DNA of 64,000 nt from Ignavibacteria bacterium (GTDB taxonomy: Bacteria; Bacteroidota; Ignavibacteria; Kapaibacteriales; UBA4661): the NCBI GenBank assembly GCA_014654705.1, contig JACVZY010000051.1:1-64000 (forward strand), read 5' to 3'. The notes under the pieces were generated by a model. That model searched no databases and was not told the DNA's origin. It saw nothing but the letters and a program-made list of their open reading frames with translations. Positions 26,642 to 31,512 of the stretch are shown piece by piece; the stretch's first letter is position 1, and each line of letters starts with the position of its first letter. The position numbers and the translations under genes were made by a program.

Positions 26642-28183
26642 TTAGCGGCTAACAGTGAGCAGAACACTTTGCCGATAGCCGCCATTGGCTTGAAGTCTGC
26701 AAAGGTAGCAGCCCGGCGGCAGCGATTCGGTATTGATGATGAGGGATTGAGCACCCGCACTCTGGGTCTCACGCAGAGACAGAACGGTTTGACCGAGAAG
26801 ATTGACAACGTCGCAGGAAACATCGTTGCTGGCGGGAAGCGTGTAGTGAAGCGTTGCTTGGCTTGCACTGGGATTCGGTGAAATTTGCACACCGCCCTCA
26901 AACTGTCTTTCTGAGCGGTCGCTCACAGAAGTAAGAAGTCGCGAAAAGGGTACTAATGCCGGGTCGCCCAAGAGCGCAATACGGCGGATAAGGTCGTCTT
27001 GTGGCGTGATGCTGCTGGTGTAAAGCGCATTTTTTGCATTTAGAATAGCCGTGCCAACATCAATGCTTGCTGTGGTGGCCAATTCCTTGAAAAAGAGGCG
27101 AATAAAGGTATTATTCTCCGGATAGCTGGAGTACCCTGATGAAGCCACCGTCATCACGGCACCACCATTCTCCAGAAGCATCATTGCCTCCACGATGGAT
27201 GGTGTTTTGGGAGCATCATAGTTTTGGCTGCATCCGGCAGTAATCATCATGTATGGCTTGCCATTCCGCGCCAGATTATTCCCTACATCATCGGTGGTGA
27301 GTATCTTATATTTTGACCATAAGTCCGGCGAACCGTGCCCGTAATACATCACAATCGGTTGCCCGGCGCTCATTGCCGATGTTACCTGCCGTCGTGCATC
27401 AGGCTGTGGAGCGATTGTTTGGAAGTTCACAATGTTCATCGTCAGGGGTTTCCCGACATTATACCGCAAGTAGTTGTCTAGGAGAAAGACTTGATTGTCA
27501 AAAGCATCGTTATCTTCAGCGTCCAAAATGACGGTTGCGCGGGTGGAAAGATTGAAGCCGAGAGCATTACCACTTTCTTCAAAGAGCCGGATTTTTCCCA
27601 GTACCCGCCTGATTTCTGCCGATGTGCGCCCAGGTATGCGCCCGATTGCCGCTTGTGGTCGGGTATTGAAGTCCTCGCGGTATTTGTTGACAATATACCA
27701 TTCGTCCATCGGGATAGAATCTTCGTAGTAGCTGTACGGAGGGCGCGTGAAGAGGTCAATCGTTACCTTCGCACGATATGCCGGCAAAAGGTTCGTGCTA
27801 CCGACAAGCATAATGCGCGAGGGGCGGGGTTCAGCCCAAAATTGCAGTGTATAACTCAGGAAAGCGCGGATAGCTTCTGCTTGGGACTGCGGTCGGTTTT
27901 TAACTTCTTCACCAAATTCTTTGTTAATTTCTTCGAGAGTTACAATACGAGTGCGGAGCGCCCGATGTGTCCATGAAGCGCTTGAGCGCCATGCGGCGTG
28001 TGCTTGAAGATCGCCCACAAACTGAGACGGCGTAACGATGAGATAATCAAAGCGGTTGCTGTTGCTGCGGAGTGGCTCGACGGTGGATTGAGCTTCAAGA
28101 GAGTAGTTTTGCAGAGCCAAAAATAAGAATAACGACGACAAAAGTGCCCGCGAGGAGCGGCAAAGAAGAAGCAGGTATTGCAT
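26642..28183 (-). CDS. C25 family (gingipain-like) cysteine peptidase with T9SS sorting domain
   Basis: A 513-residue exported peptidase. It has a signal peptide (ending YSLEAQ), a caspase-fold catalytic region, and a C-terminal type A T9SS domain (ISPNPSASQATLHY, then VVNLLGQTVLSL, then LPPGCYLCRLQANGG). The catalytic dyad of the C25 family is in place: His283 in YYGHGSPD and Cys318 in TAGCSQN, 35 residues apart, close to the 33 of gingipain R. The segment KNALYTSS...RRIALLGDPAL is the usual C25 C-terminal part. It is shorter than gingipains and lacks hemagglutinin repeats. It is divergent from the GldL/GldM-like pair. Cleavage specificity is unknown. Confidence 0.87.
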   Translation of the reverse strand: MQYLLLLCRSSRALLSSLFLFLALQNYSLEAQSTVEPLRSNSNRFDYLIVTPSQFVGDLQAHAAWRSSASWTHRALRTRIVTLEEINKEFGEEVKNRPQSQAEAIRAFLSYTLQFWAEPRPSRIMLVGSTNLLPAYRAKVTIDLFTRPPYSYYEDSIPMDEWYIVNKYREDFNTRPQAAIGRIPGRTSAEIRRVLGKIRLFEESGNALGFNLSTRATVILDAEDNDAFDNQVFLLDNYLRYNVGKPLTMNIVNFQTIAPQPDARRQVTSAMSAGQPIVMYYGHGSPDLWSKYKILTTDDVGNNLARNGKPYMMITAGCSQNYDAPKTPSIVEAMMLLENGGAVMTVASSGYSSYPENNTFIRLFFKELATTASIDVGTAILNAKNALYTSSITPQDDLIRRIALLGDPALVPFSRLLTSVSDRSERQFEGGVQISPNPSASQATLHYTLPASNDVSCDVVNLLGQTVLSLRETQSAGAQSLIINTESLPPGCYLCRLQANGGYRQSVLLTVSR

Positions 28184-28412
28184 ACAAAAACAATTCGATA
28201 ATTGAAAAAGCGCATCAAACAACATCAACAGATAAGCCATAAATTTACGGAAAAAAGTGCAGACTGAAGCAAAGAATTATCACAGCCGTTGATGTTTGGG
28301 TTGAAATTTGTATTTTGGCTCGTATTTTGCGAGGAGAAATCACGGCTATTGCTTTGTATTGATTTATTTCGTTGTTTACCAAACTCTTGACTTTTGCGTT
28401 TTTTTTATCTCT

Positions 28413-29207
28413 ATGGAACAGATTCAAACACTTTCAACGCTGCGCGGTCGCGTCGTTTTGCGCGATATTGTTCGCGAATTGCGCTACGAAAAACAAGTAA
28501 GCAGTCTTACAACGTTGCTCACGTGCTGGCGGCTCTGTGCCTTCGAGCGCGATGTTTATCGGTATAGCAAACGCCAAGTAACTGTTATTCACACGTTGGG
28601 ACTCTTTCGTGGTACATCCTTGTGGTTGCAAGAGGTTGTCAATCGCTTCTATTTTTCGACTATCAATTCATTGGTATATCTCGGAGCCGCTATTTTGCTG
28701 GTACTCGTCAGTGGCTATCGCTTCACCGACCGGGTAGATACACGCTTGGTACTGAGTGGAGTGGGGCTGGAAGCACTGATGCTTCTTATTCTTTTTGTGG
28801 TTATGTTCTTTTCGCCGTCGGACGATATTGAAATGGAAGAGCAGAGCGGTGAGAACGAAGAATCAAGCGAAATTCGTGAGCTTATTAGCGAAATCGGCGA
28901 TATTTCGACCGACTACGCCGGCGCCGGGGCAAGGCTAGAAAACGTGGTCACTGCATTATCGGATATAACGGCGCGGCAGGACGAACTTCTCGGTGCAGTC
29001 AACGACGTTGCCCGTGCTGTTTCCTTCGCAGCGCACCCGCAGCCGGAATTTATTGAGACAATGCGGCAGACAAATCTTACCTTGCAAGCCTTTCACCTGA
29101 ACGTGCAAGCACTTGTGGAAGCTACACACACCCTACGCCGTGAAGAAATTCAACGAGCGGTGCGGGCGGAAGTAGAACGTATTCTGGAGCAGCGCGTTCG
29201 CTTGTAG
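28413..29207 (+). CDS. Putative GldL/PorL-like membrane protein
   Basis: A 264-residue inner-membrane protein of tentative assignment. Two adjacent TM helices lie at about 83-101 and 113-132, joined by a short polar loop. They are followed by an acidic stretch (SPSDDIEMEEQSGENEESSE) and a long helical cytoplasmic tail. This matches GldL, the stator-like T9SS motor subunit, including a glutamate inside the second helix (Glu120 in GVGLEALML) at the position of GldL's essential TM2 glutamate. The helix ends in a Phe-x-Pro pattern like GldL's. Tail helices such as FIETMRQTNLTLQAFHLNVQAL recall GldL's coiled coil. Against it: an extra 80 residues before TM1 and loss of GldL's TM1 Lys/His. The next gene looks like the GldM partner. 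Confidence 0.55.
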   Translation: MEQIQTLSTLRGRVVLRDIVRELRYEKQVSSLTTLLTCWRLCAFERDVYRYSKRQVTVIHTLGLFRGTSLWLQEVVNRFYFSTINSLVYLGAAILLVLVSGYRFTDRVDTRLVLSGVGLEALMLLILFVVMFFSPSDDIEMEEQSGENEESSEIRELISEIGDISTDYAGAGARLENVVTALSDITARQDELLGAVNDVARAVSFAAHPQPEFIETMRQTNLTLQAFHLNVQALVEATHTLRREEIQRAVRAEVERILEQRVRL

Positions 29208-29267
29208 CACATTCGGTTGTAGTACCAAAGCTCCTAGCAATTGAGGTTCATTTTTGAAAATGGAAAT

Positions 29268-30860
29268 ATGCTTTTCAAGCCCACGTCGAAGACATCCGAA
29301 CGAAAACGCCGCACACGGCGGCAAGTAGAGATTTATTTTGTTCTCTATCTTGCGGCGCTACTCTTGCTTTTACCTAATAAACGAGAACGTGCGCCGGAGT
29401 CCGACCCGTCGCTGGTGTATGAATTGCTGAAATCCCGCTTCATTATTGCAGCTGAACGCCCGACGATGAATTGTCAGCTACTCGTCATTGGCGATAGTGT
29501 GCGCGTCGTAACGTTGGATTCGGTTAACACCGTTTCCTCAAGCGGTGATGTGGGCGATGTGCATTACGAGTTCCGCGTGGAGGACGAAACGCAAGGGCAG
29601 GTGCTGACGATTTCTTCACAAACCCCGCAAGTTGGTATTTTTATGATGAAAGAAGACGCGCAGCGTAAACTTGCCGAATTTTTTTGGCAGCCAGCTCGCA
29701 ATGAGAGACGCAGTCGAACACTCAAGGTGTCCGTGATTGGCACGGCAAAACCCGTCATCCCTTCGACCATCACCCGTCCCGATGTTCGGGAGCGGCTTGT
29801 GCGGCTTTTGAACGAAGAAGACCGTTTCGATACAGCACGGACGGAATTTACGATTAACATTTCGTTTGTGGATGTCGGGCGCTCTATCGCGCTTAATAGC
29901 GTCAACATTGACAGCCTTGTGAATGCAGTACGCAGCTCCAGCGCTTCTCTCGCCTCCGGCTTCTCGCAGCCAATTTTTGTTACTAACCGCCAATTTGTAC
30001 CGCCACCGCCAGGTGAGTTTTCACTGTATGCCGTAAGCGATCGCGTAGAATGTTTACCCTTTCAGCAGTGGGAGAATCAAATCCGGGTCTATGGCATGAA
30101 CCTTCGCACCGAAGGACGCGGTGACCCAAAAGCAGAAATTCTGCGCACCGACCGCAATGATGGAACAGGCACGGCGAGTATAGCCGACGTGCGTGGCGAC
30201 CTTATCCGGGTAACGGGTACAGCGCCTACATCGGGGCTGATGACTATTCGCGTTATCGTTACACGAGCGGGTGATGGCAAACAAAATACGATTGATTTCC
30301 CCGTTCGCGCCACGCCAATTGCTGCACCCGACATTCCTCGCAGGATGTATGCCGGAGTGGGATACGAGTTCGACCCCAAACTACCATTTGTAACAAAGCA
30401 AGAACTCCGCGCCACGCTCTCGCTGGGCGGCAAAGAGCGCTCTGTAAGCCAGCAAGGTGAGAAATTTACCTTTTCCCCTGATGAAAGTGATATTGGCAAA
30501 ACATTTGCCTTTGAACGCTTCGTGGGCGGGAAGCGTGTTGGCGAGGTGTATTACGTGAAAGTGGAAGAATTTTCTGCACCTGAAATTGTTGAGGTCTTTT
30601 CGCAAGGAGCAGATGAATTTGTGCGAACACGTTGCTATGGACAAGTGAACGGCACGGACAACCGCGTGATACTGGAAGTAAAAGGAAATAATCTTAAAGC
30701 AACCGAGCGATATGGCGACCGCCGCAGTGAGCCGCCTGCAATCTTGCAGCTTTTCAAACTCAGCAGAGTGGAAAGCGGAAAGCCATACAACGCTACAATT
30801 CGCGCCATTGATAGCAAAGGAAGGGCTTCCATTGCTCGTTTCCTTGATGGCAAGGATTAG
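29268..30860 (+). CDS. Putative GldM/PorM-like protein, single TM and large periplasmic part
   Basis: A 530-residue protein. A basic start (SERKRRTRRQ) leads into one TM helix at about 20-38 (IYFVLYLAALLLLLP). About 490 periplasmic residues follow, mostly beta strands. Segments near 255-340, 345-430 and 430-530 look like successive Ig-like domains, for example FSLYAVSDRVECLPFQQWENQIRVYGMNL. The arrangement, an RQ-x-motif before one N-terminal helix and then stacked beta domains, is that of GldM, which spans the periplasm and couples the GldL motor to the T9SS outer ring. Sequence identity is clearly low and the helical D1 domain of GldM is not obvious. The start at 29268 is 60 nt after the GldL-like gene. 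Confidence 0.5.
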   Translation: MLFKPTSKTSERKRRTRRQVEIYFVLYLAALLLLLPNKRERAPESDPSLVYELLKSRFIIAAERPTMNCQLLVIGDSVRVVTLDSVNTVSSSGDVGDVHYEFRVEDETQGQVLTISSQTPQVGIFMMKEDAQRKLAEFFWQPARNERRSRTLKVSVIGTAKPVIPSTITRPDVRERLVRLLNEEDRFDTARTEFTINISFVDVGRSIALNSVNIDSLVNAVRSSSASLASGFSQPIFVTNRQFVPPPPGEFSLYAVSDRVECLPFQQWENQIRVYGMNLRTEGRGDPKAEILRTDRNDGTGTASIADVRGDLIRVTGTAPTSGLMTIRVIVTRAGDGKQNTIDFPVRATPIAAPDIPRRMYAGVGYEFDPKLPFVTKQELRATLSLGGKERSVSQQGEKFTFSPDESDIGKTFAFERFVGGKRVGEVYYVKVEEFSAPEIVEVFSQGADEFVRTRCYGQVNGTDNRVILEVKGNNLKATERYGDRRSEPPAILQLFKLSRVESGKPYNATIRAIDSKGRASIARFLDGKD

Positions 30861-30894: not shown

Positions 30895-31512
30895 CTATGG
30901 AAATATTCTTGTCCCGTTTGTTTGAAGTTGATAGCGAAACGCATAATAGCGCGTTTGAGCTGTGATGCTGGGCGTAGCCATGTCTTTGTAGTAGCTTTGT
31001 ATTTCTAACTTTGCATATTTTGTGCCATCGGCAGTTCGCACAACAAGCACAACATCCTTAATGGGAGTAATCGTAGTGCCACCATACGAATACCATCCTT
31101 CGCCGCTTTTAGCTGTCAGTGCAAGGTTATCTTCCGCATCATCAGTGCGGTAGCCGCTTGCAGGCGCTTCTGTGAGTGCATCATATTTTTGGTTCGTGAG
31201 GCGCACCATTCCGCCCTGTCCCGTGCGAATTTTCCCACCGTTGACAATAATTGTTGTCTTACGGAATCCAATATCCCATTTGGTCGTCGCTGAATCGCTA
31301 TTGGGGATGATAGTTTGGGTCTGCAAGTTCAGAAGCGTAAAACGGTCTTCCGAGTCAGCGTTAAGGTTTTTGACCGATACTACCGCGCCACTTGTCGAAA
31401 ATTCTGCTGTTGGCAAAGAGCCGTCATTTGGTTGCCGGCAAGCAGTAAAAAAGCTGGAAACGCAAATGAGCACACTTACTGCGTAACTCTTTATTTTGGG
31501 ATTCGCTGTCAT
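30895..31512 (-). CDS. HmuY-like lipoprotein
   Basis: A 205-residue lipoprotein: the signal peptide ends SFFTACRQ, with the cysteine as lipid anchor. The body follows the HmuY fold plan. It runs DRFTLLNLQTQTIIPNSDSATTKWDIGFRKTTIIVNGG, then a GQGGMVRLTNQKYDAL segment, WYSYGGTTITPIKDVVLVVRTADGTKYAKLEIQSYY, and finally FRYQLQTNGTRIF. HmuY of Porphyromonas gingivalis is a cell-surface heme-binding lipoprotein. The family is broad, and the axial histidines of HmuY are not evident here, so heme binding is a guess. It converges with the GldM-like gene. A possible promoter (TAATTTTG on the minus strand at 31579-31586) lies about 65 nt upstream. Confidence 0.75.
   Translation of the reverse strand: MTANPKIKSYAVSVLICVSSFFTACRQPNDGSLPTAEFSTSGAVVSVKNLNADSEDRFTLLNLQTQTIIPNSDSATTKWDIGFRKTTIIVNGGKIRTGQGGMVRLTNQKYDALTEAPASGYRTDDAEDNLALTAKSGEGWYSYGGTTITPIKDVVLVVRTADGTKYAKLEIQSYYKDMATPSITAQTRYYAFRYQLQTNGTRIFP

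Follow-up and report, generated by a model that had tools for sequence, protein, structure and literature searches.

A very divergent GldL/GldM-like gene pair in the order Kapaibacteriales and its possible role as a motor of type 9 secretion

Contig JACVZY010000051.1 (assembly GCA_014654705.1) of an Ignavibacteria bacterium of the order Kapaibacteriales was analysed over its first 64,000 nucleotides, hereafter called the window. Two adjacent genes of this window, gene 1 at 28413..29207 and gene 2 at 29268..30860, appear to constitute a very divergent GldL/GldM (PorL/PorM) pair, and we lean towards the view that this pair is the motor of the type 9 secretion system (T9SS) in this organism. Excerpts of published reports describe GldLM as a 5:2 motor (PMC9389320), E49 in transmembrane (TM) helix 2 of GldL as strictly conserved and required for secretion (PMC8986121), and PorM as a TM helix followed by a helical domain D1 and the immunoglobulin (Ig) domains D2-D4 (PMC12421860). 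An excerpt of a report from 2016 gives T9SS in Bacteroidetes only; its model has GldL and GldM as components (PMC4793230). None of the open-licence papers among the listed matches of a literature search deals with a pair resembling GldL/GldM in either Kapabacteria or Ignavibacteria.

The two genes and their predicted products

Gene 1 is read from an ATG at 28413 to a TAG ending at 29207, and gene 2, on the same strand after a gap of 60 bases, from an ATG at 29268 to a TAG ending at 30860. TM stretches were called from Kyte-Doolittle hydrophobicity. The features of the two genes are as follows.

28413..29207, plus strand: gene 1, GldL-like, 264 aa, with a TM pair and an acidic helical tail (open reading frame, orthologues, hhalign to GldL)
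28413..28652, plus strand: N-terminal extension of gene 1, about residues 1-80, without counterpart in canonical GldL (alignment of 41 orthologues)
28653..28727, plus strand: TM helix 1 of gene 1, residues 81-105, with Y89, GAA91-93 and R103 (28719-28721)
28746..28829, plus strand: TM helix 2 of gene 1, residues 112-139, with invariant E120 (28770-28772)
28830..29204, plus strand: acidic, coiled-coil-like tail of gene 1, residues 140-264 (sequence)
29268..30860, plus strand: gene 2, GldM-like, 530 aa (open reading frame, orthologues, hhalign to GldM)
29322..29378, plus strand: N-terminal TM helix of gene 2, residues 19-37, preceded by RRTRRQVE
30048..30590, plus strand: residues 261-441 of gene 2, alignable with the D2-D3 stretch of GldM (hhalign, weak)

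The original prediction, made from the sequence of the window, had described two adjacent TM helices in gene 1 with Glu120 in the second, and this description was confirmed. The hydrophobic stretches of the protein are residues 81-105 and 112-139, Glu120 lies within the latter, and two non-overlapping TM segments, the second spanning the glutamate, were found in 41/41 aligned orthologues. Gly91, Ala92 and Glu120 are invariant across these 41 proteins. The extra N-terminus of about 80 residues is real and is kept in most of the orthologues. As to the supposed lack of the Lys/His of GldL in TM helix 1, no conserved histidine is present in the 41-row alignment, but position 103 is basic in every row (Arg in 40, Lys in 1). 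The tail is probably cytoplasmic. When the gene-1 profile was compared with solved chains, the matches (best 60 of 193) fell in this tail and were mostly coiled coils and helical bundles.

Gene 2 possesses a sole hydrophobic stretch, residues 19-37, positioned behind an arginine run. An N-terminal TM segment is present in 37/37 gene-2 orthologues, in agreement with the single TM helix after an RRQ motif that had been predicted. The remainder of the protein would lie on the periplasmic side and form periplasmic domains. This part had also been called beta-rich; it may be so, and the only sources for that description are a low-confidence structure model and the comparison with GldM.

Relationship to GldL and GldM

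PF22827 was used to find 20 genomes of the phylum, from which canonical GldL and GldM sequences were collected; the profiles built from these recovered the solved GldL and GldM chains. Employing hhalign, we compared the gene-1 family with the 20 canonical GldL sequences and obtained E-values of 1.9e-7 to 7.2e-7 (probability 92-94). In the alignment, the GAA start of TM helix 1 and the glutamate of TM helix 2 are in register, while the basic residue of TM helix 1 is offset by one position. The spacing from Gly to Glu is 29 in both families (G91-E120 in the window, G16-E45 in the GldL of locus L108). Gene 1 shares with GldL/PorL (TIGR03513, PF22827; Flavobacterium johnsoniae GldL, PDB 6ys8) a TM hairpin that begins with Gly-Ala, one base in TM helix 1, an invariant and equally spaced glutamate in TM helix 2, a proline after TM helix 2, a helical tail and a position directly 5' of the M gene. 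Unlike GldL/PorL, gene 1 carries the 80-residue extension, its base in TM helix 1 is an Arg one position later, and it has no His; in the 20 canonical sequences, Lys27 is invariant and His30 is at least 90% conserved.

Decoys queried with the gene-1 family, namely 26 clusters of neighbouring genes (the gene-2 family among them), LptF/G, GldK, GldM and GldN, all gave E >= 0.037. Reversed GldL gave E 0.003, in the tail only. Because GldL and GldM match their own reversed copies (4.3e-6 and 2.9e-4, respectively), reversal is a poor control, and column permutation was adopted instead. With the columns of GldL permuted within TM helix 1, loop and TM helix 2, none of 200 permutations reached the real score in any of three versions of the query. 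Addition of four divergent GldL sequences (families f28 and f54, see below) brought the match of gene 1 to E 1.4e-7, with 1.6e-5 for the TM part alone. In a smaller set of 630 genes, drawn from the loci that were fetched, the GldL profile had 10 matches up to E 1, every one of them a gene-1 orthologue; 9 of these matches include the TM region, each piece being weak.

The similarity of gene 2 to GldM is weak. By hhalign, gene 2 matched the D2-D3 stretch of GldM at E 1e-4 to 2e-3, with D4 outside the alignment. In three versions of the comparison, 0/150 permutations reached the real score. Reversed GldM gave E 0.17; no decoy fell below 0.1 outside the gene-2 family itself and the M' proteins of Ignavibacteria described below, the other decoys giving E >= 0.14. 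With GldM/PorM (TIGR03517; PDB 6ey4, 6ey5, 6ys8), gene 2 shares a single TM helix near the N-terminus, preceded by basic residues, a large remainder, and weak colinear similarity over D2-D3. In contrast to GldM/PorM, it lacks the PRQKMINxMYLV signature, its counterpart of the helical D1 is unrecognisable, and the similarity appears at the profile-profile level only.

The gene order is L followed by M, and each gene matches the right partner; in the cross-comparisons of gene 1 with GldM and gene 2 with GldL, the probability was 0.1. Based on these comparisons, gene 1 is very probably homologous to GldL, and homology of gene 2 to GldM is likely, with a lower degree of confidence. The GldL/GldM identity, order and topology assigned in the original prediction are therefore backed for gene 1 by profile-profile comparison with controls and for gene 2 more weakly, whereas the curated models miss both. 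The pair stands outside the curated GldL/GldM families and yet probably works like them. The residues it suggests as surviving extreme divergence in GldL are the Gly-Ala start, one base in TM helix 1 and the glutamate in TM helix 2.

We infer a proton-driven, rotating complex of 5:2 stoichiometry that has an outer-membrane partner and serves T9SS. Several copies of gene 1, each with two TM helices, would surround a dimer of the TM helix of gene 2. Protons would pass Glu120 in TM helix 2 (equivalent to E49 of GldL), and R103 in TM helix 1 would play the part of Lys27 in GldL. Proton passage would turn or bend the periplasmic part of gene 2, which would transmit force in the direction of the outer membrane, where the T9SS (Sov) apparatus is the most likely recipient.

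Conservation of the pair and its link to type 9 secretion

The order was sampled with 61 genomes from 27 genera. The gene-1 query matched all 61; genome G046 was discounted, its sole match being a 451-aa frame of another family, so that orthologues are present in 60/61. Gene 2 matched 60/61 genomes and is absent from G004, which is 86% complete. Both genes occur in 59 genomes and are adjacent in 53 of them; in the other 6 (G002, G003, G005, G006 and G007, all of the window's own genus, and G011) they lie on different contigs. Retention of both genes where they are unlinked speaks for a working partnership. A search of contigs yielded two relatives of gene 2, in a Candidatus Kapaibacterium metagenome-assembled genome (L031) and an Ignavibacteria bacterium metagenome-assembled genome (L032).

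SprA_N, the N-terminal domain of Sov, was found in 25/25 sampled genomes of the order, the source genome included, and all 25 possess both genes. The domain was also found in 48/48 genomes of the class that belong to other orders (no member of the class heads the list of non-matching genomes) and in 228/296 sampled genomes of the phylum. Canonical GldL_N was detected in 37/148 genomes of the phylum and in none of class Ignavibacteria. GldM exceeded the curated cut-off in 70/296 phylum genomes, and 4 weaker matches were accepted besides. Neither the curated GldM search nor a broader GldM profile matched any genome of the order; in the class, the former gave one marginal match (G118, 0.004) and the latter four (0.004-0.035). 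The original prediction had named, as an outcome that would speak against it, a canonical gldLM elsewhere together with absence of the pair from T9SS-positive relatives. Neither the source genome nor the order as sampled yielded a canonical GldL or GldM, and no other motor for T9SS could be detected there.

The other half of that outcome, absence from T9SS-positive relatives, was seen in part. Of the 48 Sov-positive genomes sampled from the class outside this order, 15 showed a clear match (E < 1e-13) to the TM-pair family to which gene 1 belongs, 3 matched at 0.003-0.01 and 30 gave no match, many genomes being scored on 20 of their first-look candidates. In the latter 33, Sov would either manage with no member of this family or rely on something that the searches do not reveal. 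Mainly because these 33 of 48 genomes show no clear match, we do not claim the T9SS role outright; we regard it as somewhat better than an even proposition.

At least 154 Sov-positive genomes of the phylum have no recognised GldM (228 with SprA_N against 74 with accepted GldM). The energy source of Sov in such genomes is the question on which the pair bears: for one whole order, it is a concrete and testable candidate.

As the original prediction had it, a T9SS cargo gene adjoins the pair: a C25 peptidase gene with a Por_Secre_tail (T9SS sorting) domain lies at 26642-28240 on the minus strand, divergent from gene 1. This arrangement proved not to be general. No C25 homologue was found within 600 bases of gene 1 in any of 29 other loci with wide flanks, and the C25 gene is not conserved context of the pair; in the near relative L031, a divergent gene resembling that of the window adjoins the pair. 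In 17 of the 29 wide-flank loci, gene 1 is adjoined by an LptF/LptG gene on the same strand (identified with Pfam on two). At one of these 17, L062:4037-6340 (genome G008), an LptF/LptG frame and gene 1 form a single open reading frame of 767 aa, either a fusion or an assembly error. Through this fused frame, single-linkage clustering had placed the upstream 360-aa gene as a paralogue of the TM pair; it is actually LptF/LptG. On the other side of the pair, an HmuY-family protein (PF14064, 48 bits) is encoded at 30895-31512 on the minus strand, convergent with gene 2, and a similar 205-aa neighbour is found in L031. A scan for promoters and terminators showed no excess of promoters over shuffled sequences, and a plasmid search gave nothing useful.

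A wider family of TM pairs and alternative explanations

From this pair, the search reached additional members of its TM-pair family. Within the order, the gene-1 profile also matched two families that share the TM pair and its invariant glutamate: famB, of about 450 aa, and famC, of about 350 aa. In both, the pair is preceded by an extra N-terminal TM helix, a probably periplasmic stretch and a further TM helix. The source genome encodes two proteins of this type (G000:C118:20755-21144 and G000:C14:55451-55756; homologues L155-L161). No M-type gene was seen beside famB or famC genes. Each of the 25 genomes sampled from the order has 2-4 matches to a combined TM-pair profile.

Elsewhere in the class, the matches are mostly shorter proteins, here called L'. 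In 9 of 10 genomes of these other orders whose loci were retrieved, a gene with a single TM helix (M-type; M' when beside L') adjoins the L gene; G252 has none, and G179 has a pair of the gene-1/gene-2 type. The TM pair of L' is homologous to gene 1, the match being at E 1.3e-16, and M' is a relative of gene 2: long M' (L164 and L174, two sequences) matched gene 2 at E 1.5e-10, and short M' at 1e-3. In the combined alignment of 29 TM pairs, the G, A and E are invariant. Like the window pair, the L'-M' pairs of Ignavibacteria (L164, L166, L168-L174) consist of a two-TM protein followed by a single-TM protein; unlike it, L' has a different N-terminal extension or none, M' is mostly about 205 aa, and in several genomes the pair stands within an operon that is absent from the window locus. 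At six loci (L166, L168-L171 and L173), L' and M' head this operon of secreted proteins of about 365, 505 and 465 aa, followed by a further relative of the 505-aa protein that is often truncated by the end of the stretch; a DUF2254-like gene precedes the operon in 5/6. Those of the secreted proteins that were scanned matched no Pfam model over its cut-off. From its composition, the operon looks like a trans-envelope machine. One of its clusters, c9, was considered as GldN (probability 68) and rejected: with signal peptides removed, the E-values were 0.03-0.08. With four more proteins from the gldN position included, c9 gave 0.003 (probability 10) and is still not claimed as GldN.

A number of results weigh against the assignment of genes 1 and 2 to GldL/GldM and T9SS, beyond the 33 Sov-positive genomes mentioned above. 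Neither gene exceeded any Pfam or NCBIfam cut-off, those of the curated GldL and GldM models included, and the hhalign E-values given here are for single comparisons, not database searches. Over the 61 genomes, the canonical GldL profile produced 11 weak matches up to E 1 and did not recover the TM pair of gene 1; 10 of them cover a coiled-coil part (one at the gene-1 locus, in G053) and one a TM part, in another gene (G020:C117). Solved GldL is not among the best 60 of 193 chains matched by the gene-1 profile. The gene-1 alignments lack both DWxxVYPEL after TM helix 2 and the C-terminal N-L-x-x-L-N motif (N191, L195, N196 and Y199 are invariant in the 20 canonical GldL). Taken alone, the four divergent GldL match gene 1 in the tail only (5e-6; 0.16 for the TM part), and their four GldM counterparts are poor matches to gene 2 (0.02-0.10); L' of Ignavibacteria and famB/famC on their own match GldL poorly as well. 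The match of GldM to the gene-2 family (2.4e-4) is about that of GldM to its own reversed copy (2.9e-4), and between the TM helix of gene 2 and that of GldM there is no significant similarity (0.009). The GldN Pfam model matched 0/61 relatives, a model for which there was no positive control. Structure predictions of the two proteins, made from alignments of 2 and 3 rows, had confidence (pLDDT) values of 45 and 35 and were unusable. Foldseek searches with these low-confidence models, which were not used, listed largely helical chains for gene 1, whereas most of the chains listed for gene 2 were beta structures, of Ig type or other; GldL and GldM were not among the 50 rows listed for either.

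The pair may descend from GldL/GldM and power a trans-envelope job other than T9SS, with outer-membrane partners of its own. The operon headed by L'-M' fits such a role, some of its secreted proteins having, by eye, ends like those of outer-membrane barrels, and gldK and gldN are not recognisable in it; the 33/48 Sov-positive genomes with no clear match and the same-strand LptF/LptG gene in 17/29 loci point the same way. Set against this, the sampled genomes of the order show no other motor for T9SS that the searches could detect, and Sov accompanies both genes in 25/25 genomes. We consider this explanation unlikely, though it is the one to be taken most seriously beside the T9SS motor.

More speculatively, the TM pair of GldL may belong to a larger stator superfamily of Kapabacteria and Ignavibacteria. 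Most cells of the order would then combine a two-gene GldLM-like motor with one or two forms encoded by a single gene (famB and famC), in which the hairpin, with its invariant glutamate, sits behind a TM-periplasmic-TM module that possibly replaces GldM; there would be several proton motors, one of them running T9SS. At present we find this picture rather improbable.

It is improbable, more so than either of the foregoing, that the pair is an unrelated membrane complex whose TM hairpins and Ig-like domains have come to resemble GldL/GldM by convergence. Curated models and plain hidden Markov model searches miss the pair, identity is about 20% or less, and famB and famC carry the TM pair with no M-like gene seen beside them. 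Against convergence stand the column permutations (0/200 and 0/150), the match of both genes to the right partners in the right order, and scores that rise slightly once distant GldL and GldM are added.

A pair of the ExbB/ExbD, TolQ/TolR or MotA/MotB type can be dismissed as very improbable: such pairs are of the same general kind, proton-driven 5:2 stators (an excerpt of PMC9389320) in which a wheel of TM helices is combined with an axle of one TM helix, but they show no sequence match, gene 1 has two TM helices only, and a MotA_ExbB protein exists elsewhere in 25/25 genomes searched. The better match to ExbB or TolQ (PF01618) that the original prediction had proposed to look for did not occur, the hhalign comparison of the gene-1 family with 23 MotA_ExbB-family proteins of the order giving E 0.41-0.57 and probability 0.1.

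The divergent sequences added to the GldL and GldM sets come from another gldL-gldM pair, carried by families f28 and f54 of the phylum (G082, G164, G174 and G326; loci L216-L219), with proteins of about 240 and 380-400 aa and a gene for 309-380 aa following in the place of gldN. Its GldM falls far below the TIGR03517 cut-off, and the match to the GldL model is weak (L219) or nil (L216). By hhalign, the two are GldL and GldM with probabilities of 97.9 and 99.0, the GldM matching only the later part of canonical GldM. This pair is not close to that of the window, as the E-values of 0.16 for the TM part of gene 1 and 0.02-0.10 for gene 2 indicate.

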